A stretch of DNA of 64,000 nt. Origin: Pirellulaceae bacterium. GTDB taxonomy: Bacteria > Planctomycetota > Planctomycetia > Pirellulales > Pirellulaceae. The stretch spans positions 62,001-126,000 of the forward strand of contig BPJU01000015.1 in the NCBI GenBank assembly GCA_026004775.1, written 5' to 3'. The notes below the pieces were generated by a model. That model ran no database searches. It had not been told where the DNA came from and worked only from the letters and a program-made list of their open reading frames with translations. Below, one piece after another: positions 3,262 to 58,718 of this stretch. The position numbers and the translations under genes are program-made. Positions within the stretch are counted from its first letter, which is position 1. Each line of letters opens with the position of its first letter.

Positions 3262-4077
3262 ATGCGAATCAGCAGCGTACACAATCCTCGACTGAAGGCG
3301 GCGGCACGGCTGCGGGACCATGCCGAACGCCGGCGAAGCGGTCGCACTTTGGTTGACGGCCTGCGCGAGATCGCCTGTGCTTTGCGCCACGCCGGTTGCG
3401 TCGAATCGTTGTTTTGTCTGCCGGAGGCATGCACCAGTGACCAGCACCAACGCTTGTTGCGCGAAGCCGCCGGGCAAGGAGCGGTGTGCTACGAGTTGTC
3501 CGAAGCGGCGTTCCGGCGACTGGCCTACGGCGAACGGGGCGATGGGATGGTAGCCGTCGTGCGCTGCCCGGTGGCGTCGCTCGAACAACTGGCTTCGGCC
3601 GGCCGCCCGCTGGTGGTGGTCCTGGAAGCCGTGGAGAAACCGGGCAACATCGGCGCCGTAGCACGAACGGTTGATGCCACAGGCGGGGCCTTGATCATCG
3701 CCGATGGCCGCACCGACATTTTTAACCCCAACGCCATCCGCGCCAGTCTTGGTACACTCTTCACCATCCCCGTAGCCGAAGGTACGTCGACCGAGGTGCG
3801 CCGATGGCTCGAGCAGCACGACTATCGTGTGGTGGCTGCCGCCGTGGAAGCGGAAAGGATCTACTGGGAAGTGGATCTGGCAGGCCGGACTGCTTTCGTG
3901 CTGGGCAGTGAGGCCGCCGGGCTATCCGACTGCTGGAAAGGCGCCGGTATCACGCCGGTCCGGTTGCCCATGCGAGGTGCAGCCGACAGCTTGAATGTGT
4001 CGGTTACGGCGGCGGTGCTGGCATTCGAATGGTGCCGCCAATCCGCCGCTCATACCGGCCAACCGCCCAGCCGTTGA
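3262..4077 (+). CDS. TrmH/SpoU family RNA 2'-O-methyltransferase
   Basis: Transfers methyl from S-adenosylmethionine to a ribose 2'-OH in rRNA or tRNA; the exact nucleotide is not inferable. The N-terminal part, with ISSVHNPRLKAAARLRDHAE, is the SpoU substrate-binding domain. The C-terminal SPOUT domain carries motif 1 (EKPGNIGAVARTVDA), motif 2 (VLGSEAAGLS) and motif 3 (LPMRGAADSLNVSVTAAV), the trefoil-knot cofactor site. I use the ATG at 3262 (MRISSVHN) because it begins the family domain; the open frame extends 18 codons upstream with no matching sequence. About 271 aa, normal length. The stop abuts the CorC-like gene's stop with no gap. Confidence 0.9.
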   Translation: MRISSVHNPRLKAAARLRDHAERRRSGRTLVDGLREIACALRHAGCVESLFCLPEACTSDQHQRLLREAAGQGAVCYELSEAAFRRLAYGERGDGMVAVVRCPVASLEQLASAGRPLVVVLEAVEKPGNIGAVARTVDATGGALIIADGRTDIFNPNAIRASLGTLFTIPVAEGTSTEVRRWLEQHDYRVVAAAVEAERIYWEVDLAGRTAFVLGSEAAGLSDCWKGAGITPVRLPMRGAADSLNVSVTAAVLAFEWCRQSAAHTGQPPSR

Positions 4078-5367: not shown

Positions 5368-5885
5368 CGGATACTACGGGGAGGCGTGAGTTGGGCGATG
5401 TACCGCTTGCCCAGCCGATTGGTCTCGGCATGGCGCTCGGCCAAAGCCGGATCGACCTGCCCCAAGTAATAGCACTCAGCCCGCCGCATCCGCCGGCGCT
5501 GTGCCGGATCGGCGTCCTCATAGCCGACCAGATGCAAGCATCCGTGGATGAAATACAAAAGCAACTCGTCGGCTACGCCCCACCCGATGCGCTCCGCCTC
5601 ACGCCTCGCCGTGTCCCCGCACGCGATCACCTCGCCATCCAGCCAACCGGGATGTTGGCCCTCATCCAATCGAAAACTCAACACATCCGTGGTGTAGTTG
5701 TGTTCCAGATAGCGTGAGTTGAGTTGATACATCTGCGCATCATCAACCACTGCCAGGCTGAGTTCCCCGTACTGCACACCGGCATCGGCCATGATCGTGC
5801 CAACCACCCGCCGGACGCGACGCCGGTCGAGCGGGTAGCGGCGAGGGCAAGCGATCGCGATATGCAACTGAGGAAAGGGACTCAC
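5364..5885 (-). CDS. ybeY: endoribonuclease YbeY (rRNA maturation factor)
   Basis: Single-strand-specific metallo-RNase of 173 aa involved in 16S rRNA 3'-end maturation and ribosome quality control. The NSRYLEHNYTTDVLSFRLDE segment matches the conserved YbeY region, and the metal site is HGCLHLVGYEDAD. The usual motif is HGxLHLxGYDH, with three His ligands. Here the first two are present, but the third position is Asp, with Glu replacing the preceding Asp. An Asp could still bind zinc. It sits 10 bp after the 7TM-HD gene and overlaps the CorC-like gene, which matches the widely conserved phoH-ybeY-corC order and supports the assignment. Confidence 0.93.
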   Translation of the reverse strand: MSPFPQLHIAIACPRRYPLDRRRVRRVVGTIMADAGVQYGELSLAVVDDAQMYQLNSRYLEHNYTTDVLSFRLDEGQHPGWLDGEVIACGDTARREAERIGWGVADELLLYFIHGCLHLVGYEDADPAQRRRMRRAECYYLGQVDPALAERHAETNRLGKRYIAQLTPPRSIR

Positions 5886-31090: not shown

Positions 31091-31184
31091 CTTGTACAAT
31101 CCTCGTCCACGCTTCGTTCGTGCGGTAGTCTAGTTCGAGTTACCCCATTATTCTATTGTTACTTGCTGGACCGGACTGTTGCAA

Positions 31185-31787
31185 ATGGTGGTGCCGATGG
31201 GCGAGGCTTTGCACAATACGGGATGTCACCGCCCGGTGTTGCGATTGCATATTGTGGGCAGCAAAAACCACGGCAAAACGACGCTCATCGAACAGTTAGT
31301 GCCTGCCTTGAAGGCCCGTGGCTGGAGAGTCGGTACGGTCAAGCACACGCACCACCGGCACGAACTGGACGTGCCTGGCAAGGATTCCCACCGCCACCGC
31401 ATGGCGGGTGCCGAGCCGGTAGCAGTGCTGAGTCGAGACCTGGTGGCTGTCTACATTCCGCGGGGAAGGGATTCGAGCCAGGAGCCTTATGACTTCTTGG
31501 AACGCTGGTTCGACGCCTGCCACATCGTCCTGGTGGAAGGCGATATGCAGGCACGCGGCGCGAAGATCGAGGTCTGGCGTGCTCAACTCGGAACGCCCCC
31601 TCGAGCCATCGAAGATCCGTCGATCCTGGCCGTGGTCACTGACGATCCGGTTTGCGTCCAAGTGCCCGTCTTGCCGCGACACAATCTGGCACCGCTCGTT
31701 TCCTGGATCGAGCAACTGCTGCACGACTCCCGTGCAAACTCTCAGCCAGAGCCGCCATCCGGCAGTAGCCTTCCGCCAGGCAATTAG
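31185..31787 (+). CDS. mobB: molybdopterin-guanine dinucleotide biosynthesis protein MobB
   Basis: P-loop GTP-binding accessory protein for molybdenum cofactor nucleotide attachment. About 200 aa. Walker A is GSKNHGKTT, followed by LIEQLVPALKARGWRVGTVKHTHH and the DVPGKDSHRHRMAGAE block typical of MobB; FDACHIVLVEGDM supplies the Walker B region. No other molybdenum-cofactor gene is nearby, so it stands alone. The start is uncertain among TTG 31179, ATG 31185 and ATG 31197. The stop codon is the end of an 8-bp sequence (GCAATTAG) that is repeated after a MITE inserted immediately downstream. Confidence 0.88.
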   Translation: MVVPMGEALHNTGCHRPVLRLHIVGSKNHGKTTLIEQLVPALKARGWRVGTVKHTHHRHELDVPGKDSHRHRMAGAEPVAVLSRDLVAVYIPRGRDSSQEPYDFLERWFDACHIVLVEGDMQARGAKIEVWRAQLGTPPRAIEDPSILAVVTDDPVCVQVPVLPRHNLAPLVSWIEQLLHDSRANSQPEPPSGSSLPPGN

Positions 31788-31998
31788 GTAACCGTTCACG
31801 GTTGAATCACAGGCTGTTTCGGGGCCTGGCTTCCACAGGTGCGGAACACTTGCGTGTTCCGCATACGGAATGCGGACGCTTCGCGAAGATTTTTTCGTTG
31901 CGGAAGTCTTGCGGCGGCCGCTACCGCGTCCGCCTTGCGACTTCCGCTACCCCATAAGCCAATATCGTGTTCTTCATTTGCTCACCGCGAACGGTTAC
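31788..31998. mobile_element. MITE-like element, copy A, with perfect 8-bp target duplication
   Basis: A 211-bp non-coding element. The left end is GTAACCGTTCACGGTT and the right end, read inward, is GTAACCGTTCGCGGT. It is flanked by identical 8-bp direct repeats GCAATTAG at 31780-31787 and 31999-32006. Internally there is a perfect hairpin at 31840-31863 (arms TGCGGAACAC and GTGTTCCGCA around TTGC) and a wider pair GCGGAAGTC/GACTTCCGC. Related copies lie at 43824 and 58260. GTAA ends with 8-bp duplications fit the IS66 family, so a parent IS66 transposase is inferred. It inserted at the very end of mobB; the duplication preserved the stop codon. Confidence 0.88.
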
Positions 31999-32059
31999 GC
32001 AATTAGCTTGCTGCTTGCGCGGCGGGCGGATTGGATCACGTGAAATCTCCCGGAAGTGA

Positions 32060-33451
32060 CTACTGAGAACCGCGCGGCGGAAGGTCAGGGGCATCGTGCG
32101 CGGGCAACCAGCGAGCAAGTTCCTGTTTGATGGCGGCATAGTCGGAGCGGCCGGCCAGGTTTTGATACTCGAAAGGGTCGGCCATTTCGTTGTACAGCTC
32201 TTCGTCGCCATTGGCATAGCGAATATACCGCCAGGCTTCTGTACGTACCGTATGGTTGCCCCGCCCGTAGGTGGTAATAGCCGGCAGCTCCCAGGGTGCC
32301 TGCGGATCTTTCAACAAGGAGACAATACTCCTGCCTTCCAAGTGTTCAGGCCGGTCCAGACCCGCCAGCTCACACAAGGTTGGATAAACACAGAGAAAAT
32401 CGACCGTGCGATGGCACTGTTGTCCAGCCGCGGTCAACCCGGGTACTCGCCAGATGAGTACGCTGCGAGTCGGCTCCTCCCACAAGGCGAATTTCCGCCA
32501 ATGGGACTTTTCGCCCAGGCTCCAGCCGTGATCGCTCCACAGCACGACGATCGTATTGTCGCGGTACTGCGACTGATCCAGCGCATCGAGCAGCCGCCCG
32601 ACCTGAGCATCAGCAAAGGCGATGGTGGCCAGGTAAGCACGGACCGCTTCACGCCATCGCCCGGAGCTGAGTATCGCTCGGTGATCTCCCTCGGGCCTCG
32701 CCATCCGCCGTCCGGCCGAAGGAACATCTTCCAGATCATCCTCCCGATATGGTGGTAGTTCGATCGAATCGAGCGGAAACATATCAAACCATTTCTTGGG
32801 TACGGCGAACGGCATGTGCGGTTTGTAAAGCCCAATAGCCAGGAAAAACGGCCGGTCATGTTTTTCTCGTAGCTTCTGAATACCAAAGTCGACGACTTGA
32901 TAGTCGGGCATCTCCTCGTCTGGATTGGCCAGAGGATAGAATTTGATTCCTCCTACACCGTCGTCGGGAGCTTCCGGGTGCCGAACGAGGCGGCCTCCAT
33001 GGCCGGCGAAATAGTCGTCCCAATGCCCGCCGCGATCCTGCGGCCCGTGGTAGATTTTGCCTGCTCCCCATACGACATATCCGGCTCGTGCAAAATGACT
33101 GTTCAACAATTGTGTTTCCGGTATGGCGGGACGCCAATCCTGCGAATTCAGATAGCAACCGGTACTGCTTGGCCGCCGGCCGGACATCAGGGCGGCTCGA
33201 GACGGATTGCATGCCGGCGCCGCACAGTAGGCTCGCGAAAAGCTCACGCCTTGGGATGCGAGCCGATCCAGATTGGGCGTGCGGGCCTGAGGGTGCCGGC
33301 CCAGGTGTCCCACCCAATGATTAAGATCATCGATGGCGATGAACAACACATTGGGCTTCGGTACCGGTTCATCCGCGTTGACCGGAACTGTTGCCACCAT
33401 CCAAACGCACAAAATCAACCACCAGCAACTCTTTGCGAAACAGTGGCACAT
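32060..33451 (-). CDS. secreted sulfatase (iduronate-2-sulfatase-like)
   Basis: Hydrolyses sulfate esters, probably of sulfated polysaccharides taken from algae or mucins, as in many planctomycetes; substrate inferred. 463 aa. A signal peptide (MCHCFAKSCWWLILCVWMVATVPVNA) is followed by PNVLFIAIDDLNHWVGHLG with the metal-binding Asp pair. The formylglycine signature is CNPSRAALMSGRRPSSTG, so maturation by a formylglycine-generating enzyme is expected; none is encoded here. Further ligands are LWSDHGWSLGEKSHWRKF. It ends with LYNEMADPFEYQNLA, typical of iduronate-sulfatase-like enzymes. The ribosome-binding site is AAAGGA. It follows the methyltransferase gene by 23 bp. Confidence 0.93.
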   Translation of the reverse strand: MCHCFAKSCWWLILCVWMVATVPVNADEPVPKPNVLFIAIDDLNHWVGHLGRHPQARTPNLDRLASQGVSFSRAYCAAPACNPSRAALMSGRRPSSTGCYLNSQDWRPAIPETQLLNSHFARAGYVVWGAGKIYHGPQDRGGHWDDYFAGHGGRLVRHPEAPDDGVGGIKFYPLANPDEEMPDYQVVDFGIQKLREKHDRPFFLAIGLYKPHMPFAVPKKWFDMFPLDSIELPPYREDDLEDVPSAGRRMARPEGDHRAILSSGRWREAVRAYLATIAFADAQVGRLLDALDQSQYRDNTIVVLWSDHGWSLGEKSHWRKFALWEEPTRSVLIWRVPGLTAAGQQCHRTVDFLCVYPTLCELAGLDRPEHLEGRSIVSLLKDPQAPWELPAITTYGRGNHTVRTEAWRYIRYANGDEELYNEMADPFEYQNLAGRSDYAAIKQELARWLPAHDAPDLPPRGSQ

Positions 33452-43672: not shown

Positions 43673-44265
43673 CGTCAACCTGGCCTCCTACCCCGAATGC
43701 CTTCTATGTCTTTCCAAACCCCGATCACCTGAACAGCCAGCCTCCGCGATCCGCATGGATTCTCGGCCAAAGGCAGGCACCCTGTCCAGCCCATGCCCGG
43801 AAAAAGGGTGGGTTACCAACTCTGTAACCGTTCACGGTTGAATTTGAGGGTCGTTCGGTGCCTCACCATTGAAAGTGCGGAACACTTGCGTGTTCCGCAT
43901 ACGGAAAGTAGACGCTTCGCGAGGATTTTTTCAATGCGGAAGTCTCACGGCGAAACGCTGGCGCGTTCCGCCTTGCGACTTCCGCTACCCCCTAAACCAA
44001 TATCGTTTTCTTTATTTGCCAACCGTGAACGGTTACCCAACTCTTTTGGTCCGTTCCGCCGCCAGCGGAAGGCTTGCGCATTCCGCTCTGGGCTATGAAA
44101 AAACACTTTGCGACTCGGCTATTCATACGGGACGACTCCGGCTGCCGCTGCTGCATGCACCCGGCAAAGTCCGCTACCATCCAGGGATTAGAAGTGATTT
44201 AAAGCTTGATCGCGGGATGATTCCCTTTCGAGCCGGCAAACGATGGAAAATAATCAGCAAATTTT
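43673..44265. other. intergenic region with MITE copy B
   Basis: 593 bp without a supported gene. From left to right: the probable amidase promoter (about 43673-43815), an 8-bp repeat CCAACTCT, MITE copy B (43824-44036), the second CCAACTCT, then about 220 bp up to the dehydrogenase stop. That last part contains another short inverted-repeat-like stretch (TTCCGCCGCCAGCGGAAG at 44054), resembling the internal sequence of the element and possibly decayed. ORFs here of about 100-142 codons lie across the MITE and are not genes. Confidence 0.6.
43824..44036. mobile_element. MITE-like element, copy B, with perfect 8-bp target duplication
   Basis: 213 bp with perfect 16-bp ends GTAACCGTTCACGGTT in inverted orientation. 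It is flanked by CCAACTCT at 43816-43823 and 44037-44044. It shares the internal TGCGGAACAC-TTGC-GTGTTCCGCA hairpin with copy A, and the CTTGCGACTTCCGCTACCCC stretch near the right end. It differs from copy A in the middle (a CACGGCGAAACGCTGGCGCG segment replaces GCGGCGGCCGC). No transposase is encoded. Located upstream of the amidase. Confidence 0.88.
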
Positions 44266-58130: not shown

Positions 58131-58718
58131 GGCCGTCCTCCCTTCTTGCATCTGCCGGATTCCGCCCCACCATACCCATTTCCTTCTAACACCCCCGGCA
58201 TCCGATCGCAAGCTGAAAACAAAAAAACCACTAAGCCGATGGGTAGCATAAAAGACGATGCAGCCGTTCACGGTTAGCAAATGAAGAATACGATATTGGC
58301 TTATGGGGTAGAGGAAGTCGCAAGGCGGACGCGGTAGCGGCCGCCGCAAGACTTCCGCAACAAGACTTCCGCAACGAAAAAATCTTCGCGAAGCGTCCAC
58401 ATTCCGTATGCGGAACACGCAAGTGTTCCGCACCTGTGGAAGCCAGGCCCCGAAACAGCTTGTGATTCAACCGTGAACGGTTACCGAGGCAGGAATCACA
58501 AACAAATCTTTCCCTAGCATGAAATGACCAGTCTTCTATTTGAGATCGGCCAGAAATAGAGTGCAGCGGCTATGGCCGACGTGTGCGGTGGGCGGGAAAG
58601 CCAGCCGGCTAAGGAGGCAATCCCGTGCGGCAGAACAGAGAGAAAGCTCCTGCGGATCCGCAATCGGCGAATCTTATTCTTGTGCCGAGTTAGTATTAAT
58701 GAAAGTAACACCGAAATA
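58131..58718. other. intergenic region with MITE copy C
   Basis: 588 bp without a supported gene. From left: 129 bp including the promoter and leader of the CehA-like gene, MITE copy C (58260-58484), then about 230 bp up to the TM2-domain gene's stop. That last part has no clear feature apart from an AT-rich stretch before 58719. ORFs that cross the MITE, such as 58231-58470, are not genes. Confidence 0.55.
58260..58484. mobile_element. MITE-like element, copy C (no target duplication visible)
   Basis: 225 bp in inverted orientation relative to copies A and B. The right end is perfect (GTAACCGTTCACGGTTGAAT read inward). The left end is degraded (GCAGCCGTTCACGGTT). Flanking 8-mers AAGACGAT and CGAGGCAG differ. 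The interior matches copy A closely (same GCGGCGGCCGC and CTTCCACAGGTGCGG stretches), plus a 14-bp tandem duplication AAGACTTCCGCAAC at 58348-58361 and 58362-58375, which explains the length (211 + 14). Confidence 0.85.

Follow-up and report, generated by a model that had tools for sequence, protein, structure and literature searches.

A family of MITEs with IS66-type ends in a planctomycete genome, with one copy at the stop codon of mobB

Insertion sequences of the IS66 family and the prokaryotic MITEs are the described systems closest to the element analyzed here. In the sections of the literature cited, IS66 insertions in Frankia carry 8-bp repeats and ends that start with GTAAGCG (PMC11946415), two IS66 elements are given with 8-bp repeats (PMC3281130), and a 15-bp IS66 end is listed as GTAACCGTCCGGGCA (PMC12888890; see also the cited parts of PMC9769881 and PMC8024623). 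A first-pass annotation of this locus had stated that GTAA ends with 8-bp duplications are reported for the IS66 family, and the Frankia repeats and ends, as given in the cited part of PMC11946415, agree with that statement. As presented in the cited part of a review, prokaryotic MITEs are short, have terminal inverted repeats, occur in many copies, and are held to be moved in trans by a related insertion sequence (PMC10969869); the main text of that review, in the part cited, contains no occurrence of IS66. The family described here resembles these MITEs in all four respects and, unlike them as covered in that part, comprises two subfamilies that appear to recombine and to nest in older elements. 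In Pseudomonas syringae, MITEPsy1 is likewise a short element with IS-like ends and was shown to move, but it has another end sequence, a length of 100 bp, a 4-bp duplication, and six copies (PMC3189936, in the part cited).

Among IS66 elements, the short form with DUF6444 is comparable. It shares with the MITE the GTAA ends and, going by published IS66 elements, the 8-bp duplication; IS66 transposases of relatives carry near-identical ends, and relics are present in the host. Unlike that form, the MITE has no gene, and its presumed host parent is reduced to fragments. Our searches of the open-licence PMC literature found no description of this MITE family. Our verdict is that the family is new, is of the known MITE kind, has been recently active, and has a partner that is reduced to relics or missing. 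It documents high-copy IS66-type MITEs in a planctomycete whose genome shows nested insertions, mosaics among the copies, and only fragments of a parent, and it provides a system for testing end recognition by IS66 transposases and how MITEs survive once the parent is lost.

The insertion beside mobB and its family in the host

The window, meaning the whole stretch of DNA that was analyzed, comprises 64,000 nucleotides of a Pirellulaceae bacterium (assembly GCA_026004775.1, contig BPJU01000015.1, positions 62,001 to 126,000 of the forward strand). It contains the following features.

31179-31787, + strand: mobB, the host gene that ends at the insertion (reading frame; Pfam MobB, E 2.4e-37)
31780-31787, no strand: left copy of the target-site duplication, GCAATTAG; holds the mobB stop codon TAG
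31788-31998, + strand: MITE of subfamily 1, 211 bp (inverted ends, genomic copies, consensus comparison)
31788-31802, + strand: left terminal inverted repeat, GTAACCGTTCACGGT (read from the sequence)
31840-31863, no strand: inner palindrome, TGCGGAACACTTGCGTGTTCCGCA (sequence and fold analysis)
31898-31953, no strand: second inner hairpin, about 50 bp (sequence and fold analysis)
31984-31998, - strand: right terminal inverted repeat, GTAACCGTTCGCGGT (read from the sequence)
31999-32006, no strand: right copy of the target-site duplication, GCAATTAG (read from the sequence)
32060-33451, - strand: sulfatase gene, convergent with mobB (reading frames and domain search)
43824-44036, + strand: MITE of subfamily 2, 213 bp, flanked on both sides by CCAACTCT (genomic copies and flanks)
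58260-58484, - strand: older subfamily 1 copy, 91% identical and longer by insertions (one end mutated)

The 211-bp element, its inverted ends, and its identical 8-bp flanks at mobB, all claimed in the first-pass annotation, were read directly in the sequence. The right end is ACCGCGAACGGTTAC on the forward strand (31984-31998), and the two 15-bp ends differ by a single A/G mismatch. By calculation, random identity of eight bases at a fixed place has a probability of about 1.5e-5. The list of open reading frames contains none of 80 amino acids or more wholly inside the element. Since the sulfatase gene is convergent with mobB, the element has a gene 3' end on either side. The MITE landed at the stop codon of mobB, and the protein is not shortened. 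The earlier statement that the duplication regenerates this stop is correct in placing the stop in the flank; the better reading is that the left copy holds the mobB stop and that the right copy is the duplicate.

As had been proposed, the element was compared with the host genome (6.14 Mb in 30 contigs, 99.9% complete). At least 40 copies of subfamily 1, the window copy included, were recovered with 94-100% identity, each matched in full or short of one base; because only 40 of 187 candidates were scored, the number is a minimum and does not include the copy at 58260-58484. Subfamily 2 (213 bp) has at least 28 copies at 90-100% identity, counted among the 40 of 179 candidates that were scored, with L145, L152, and L160 matched over less than the full length. 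The positions of the two subfamilies do not overlap, and the host thus holds at least 68 MITE copies at 68 distinct places. A pattern search of the host found GTAACCGTTCNCGG 89 times on one strand and 90 times on the other, versus 0 times for the reversed control.

The subfamily consensus, made with locus L150 left in its unturned orientation, has perfect 16-bp ends, GTAACCGTTCACGGTT, versus 15 bp with one mismatch in the copy beside mobB. Compared with the consensus of 30 copies, the window copy has 5 differences in 211 positions, and four of these recur in other copies. Together with the perfect duplication, these few differences support the earlier claim of a recent insertion. Four copies of subfamily 2 at different sites (L134, L136, L138, and L140) are identical to the consensus of that subfamily, and L157 and L158 look like mosaics of both subfamilies. 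No target duplication was seen at the third window copy (58260-58484).

A third, older group consists of elements of about 460 bp with the same ends (L064:447-909 and L066:492-956). The subfamily 1 MITEs L006 and L022 sit inserted in elements of this group.

Target duplications, empty sites, and distribution

Flanks were surveyed for 30 copies of subfamily 1 and 28 of subfamily 2. Of these 58 copies, 32 had flanks that agreed at 8/8 bases and 13 more had flanks that agreed at 7/8 (45/58 together). The other 13 copies, with fewer than 7/8 matching bases, include L152 (the copy split by the ISKra4-type element), L154, and L156, whose ends were misplaced by the script. In a control that paired left and right flanks of different copies (2,756 pairs from 53 copies), 8/8 matches made up 0.15% and 7/8 matches 0.15%. 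Three pairs of copies (L024/L025, L143/L144, and L158/L159) share flanks through duplication of a longer segment, and because such pairs contribute to the control matches, the true chance rate is below 0.15%. Apart from these three pairs, the flanks differ from copy to copy rather than being shared by all. Perfect repeats of 9, 10, or 11 bases were absent from the 53 copies with both ends placed.

Paralogous empty sites were found for several copies. The cleanest is L137 versus L151, where a single GATTGAGG is present; further ones are L022 versus L066 and L050, L006 versus L065, and L024 versus L051, the last with a diverged target. These sites concern copies where the MITEs sit in repeats and not the copy beside mobB. 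The repeat of L137 and L151 is the IS-like sequence in which L061 also lies; it carries an HTH_Tnp_1 gene and is taken for an IS3 relative. As the same sequence holds both, L061 and L137 may be one insertion copied along. The copy number, the 8-bp duplications at unrelated sites, and the paralogous empty sites bear out the classification as a MITE.

Among 60 genomes, only the host was matched by the element. The 59 relatives, none of them of the host genus, gave no match at E 0.001, so occupation of the same position in distant taxa was not found. A scan of GTDB 220 species for an exact 29-base pattern of one end, which may not include records closest to the host and does not detect diverged copies, found it elsewhere only in two contigs of the metagenome-assembled genome Gemmatales bacterium KatS3mg105. 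These contigs are near-identical alleles (99.65%). Their MITE copies show 96.7-97.6% identity for subfamily 1 and, for subfamily 2, 98.1-98.6% with a further copy at 91%; the duplications read there are GTTTTTTA, TTTTTTCT, and TGGTTTCG, and IS66 relic fragments are present as well. A comparison of 3.3 kb of genes from the KatS3mg105 contigs with the host gave no match at E 1e-10, a result that shows little, as it had no positive control, and the contigs thus yielded no empty site from a strain. Viral contigs gave four matches to the 18-letter end pattern, one of which (L203) matches the end of the sister MITE over 21 bases; none of the four is accompanied by a facing end at three mismatches or fewer, and the matches are taken as chance. 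Plasmids and phages gave no match.

IS66 transposases with matching ends

The pattern GTAACCGTTCNCGGT occurs in 19 of 392 genomes of the phylum, with many copies only in the host (85 + 86) and in G290 (48 + 44). Single matches elsewhere are at chance level, the reversed control being found in about 21 genomes. G235 has two exact ends, both at decayed IS66 genes. With a piece of its transposase as the query, 11 of the 392 genomes were matched, and in 7 of the 11 (G235, G088, G223, G302, G373, G164, and G260) an end within two mismatches of GTAACCGTTCACGG, the first three bases being fixed, lies near the gene. The other four (G102, G344, G122, and G239) have no end within two mismatches nearby. 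By calculation, about 0.01 such end matches are expected by chance in 3 kb. Ends of this kind are present on both sides of the gene at L110/L161, L165, and L168 and on one side at L162, L163, L164, and L169. The proteins of L162, L163, L164, L165, and L168 match both NCBIfam transpos_IS66 and DDE_Tnp_IS66, and the L110 piece matches transpos_IS66, whose cut-off is exceeded by L162, L164, and L168. None of the three two-ended elements (L110, L165, and L168) has an 8-bp duplication; L165 has a 9-base repeat. This counts against the IS66 reading and slightly lowers our confidence in it. G181 has a more distantly related IS66 with GTAACCG ends, and one of its three copies listed (L121) shows a perfect 8-bp duplication.

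At L165:978-2500, the 1,523-bp IS66-type element has GTAACCGTTCAC ends and the apparent 9-base flanking repeat GCCGTAATG.

G290 contains a different MITE with the same ends, with 92 exact ends in all, and its assembly (84% complete) gave no match to an IS66 transposase. The state of a MITE family orphaned of its transposase may recur in G290. A two-ended 252-bp copy of this MITE, with the duplication CTTCCGTC, is located at L105:1526-1777 (contig C40 of G290).

In the host assembly, only fragments of an IS66 with GTAACCGTTCACGG ends were found and no intact one. Profile A1, representing the IS66 proteins of relatives, matched only ten short host fragments (E 0.002 to 0.64). Eight of the ten align to the same C-terminal columns and, because several are related repeats, are not all independent evidence. 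A relic fragment lies between two ends at L188 (723 bp), L189 (568 bp), and L186 (one end mutated). Using tblastn with composition correction off, the C-terminal piece from G235 matched fetched host loci at E 2.5e-6 (L187) and 1e-4 (L186), and N-terminal pieces gave E 3e-4 (L193) and 0.001 (L191), two loci that have no clear ends near them. These values are optimistic because the search was confined to loci selected beforehand. Five relic peptides had no IS66 match in Pfam or NCBIfam. Similarity between MITEs and relics is limited to the ends, with at most 39 bases at 87% (subfamily 2 versus L063). On sequence grounds, we read the host fragments as remains of an IS66 parent. The designation of the element as IS66 type in the first-pass annotation is thereby supported by transposases with such ends (GTAACCGTTCA) in other planctomycetes and by the host relics. 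An IS66 element with such ends, for which that annotation had proposed to look, exists in other planctomycetes and as fragments in the host but was not found intact in the host.

Proposed mobilization and its alternatives

The element is a non-autonomous transposon (MITE) whose ends would be recognized by an IS66-family transposase, a DDE enzyme with DUF6444 at its N-terminus. Element lengths of 1.5-1.7 kb make it probable that this transposase is of the short, single-gene kind. DDE transposases cut their target in a staggered manner. An IS66-family enzyme would have inserted the MITE in trans, with a stagger of 8 bp that, upon repair, would yield the target duplication. Judging from sequence comparison, the MITE was very probably inserted by such a transposase, and we infer that this enzyme, now decayed or absent from the assembly, did the moving.

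Other sources of mobility were considered. The only long IS66 genes found in the host, three copies with open frames of 578-599 amino acids, belong to elements with GTAAGCGTACACC ends, and they were rejected as the direct parent because the ends differ. That these elements cross-mobilized the MITEs is unlikely. They do provide the only long IS66 genes in the assembly, their ends agree by count with the MITE ends at 11/15 bases, and some MITEs look very recent; however, the relics with MITE ends match another IS66 branch, and the three GTAAGCGTACACC-ended copies lack an 8-bp duplication, their flanks agreeing at 1, 4, and 2 of 8 bases. A history in which the family outlived its own IS66 partner and went on moving with the help of another IS66, whose ends match at only 11/15, is held to be improbable to the same degree. 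An ISKra4-type transposase between two GTAACCGTTCACGG ends on contig C2 was also considered as the mover. There, a 2,087-bp stretch (L061) has the same ends and a perfect CCTCAATC duplication and holds an ISKra4-like gene. That gene, however, belongs to an 1,865-bp element of its own, with GGGTGCAGGTTGCACTTTG ends and a 9-bp GAATTTGAG duplication, lying inside a subfamily 2 MITE, and a second such element, with both of its ends, occupies C1:1-1865 without MITE ends in that search. An ISKra4 partner was rejected on its own ends, the 9-bp duplication, and the second copy, and we consider the chance that it moved the MITE to be close to nil.

It is very unlikely that the element is a functional repeat (a terminator or an RNA- or protein-binding hairpin) and not a transposon, even though the fold of its strand is far stronger than that of shuffled sequence (z -6.5), its hairpins are conserved, and its copies are biased away from genes. 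Among 42 copies whose flanks agree at 7/8 or 8/8 bases, three segment duplicates having been dropped, 6 lie inside open reading frames of 200 amino acids or more, versus 68% of control positions. The simplest reading is that most examined copies lie outside long frames because gene-breaking insertions were lost. Against a functional repeat, duplications at unrelated sites and empty sites speak for transposition, the two Rfam matches fall well short of their thresholds (E 0.37 and 0.85), and in 18 sequences compensatory change is seen at only 3 of 63 predicted pairs. Terminator-like sites are near expectation (one versus 0.5), and the 42 copies have no evident bias in orientation to gene ends or toward gene 3' ends. 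An RNA or terminator function was rejected on Rfam, covariation, and gene-end orientation. Insertion in trans by an IS66-family transposase is the reading that we prefer.

The 1,865-bp ISKra4-type element is located at L061:723-2587 (G000:C2:592222-594086) and the second one at G000:C1:1-1865. At L061, two overlapping frames each encode a part of the ISKra4-type transposase.

Independently of full MITEs, the inner hairpin of about 50 bp is also present on its own in the KatS3mg105 contigs and, as weaker matches, at five places in fetched host loci (79-87% identical). Sites of the lone hairpin are L197:90-145, 3639-3694, 5403-5458, and 5567-5624 and L194:1858-1910 and 1928-1977.
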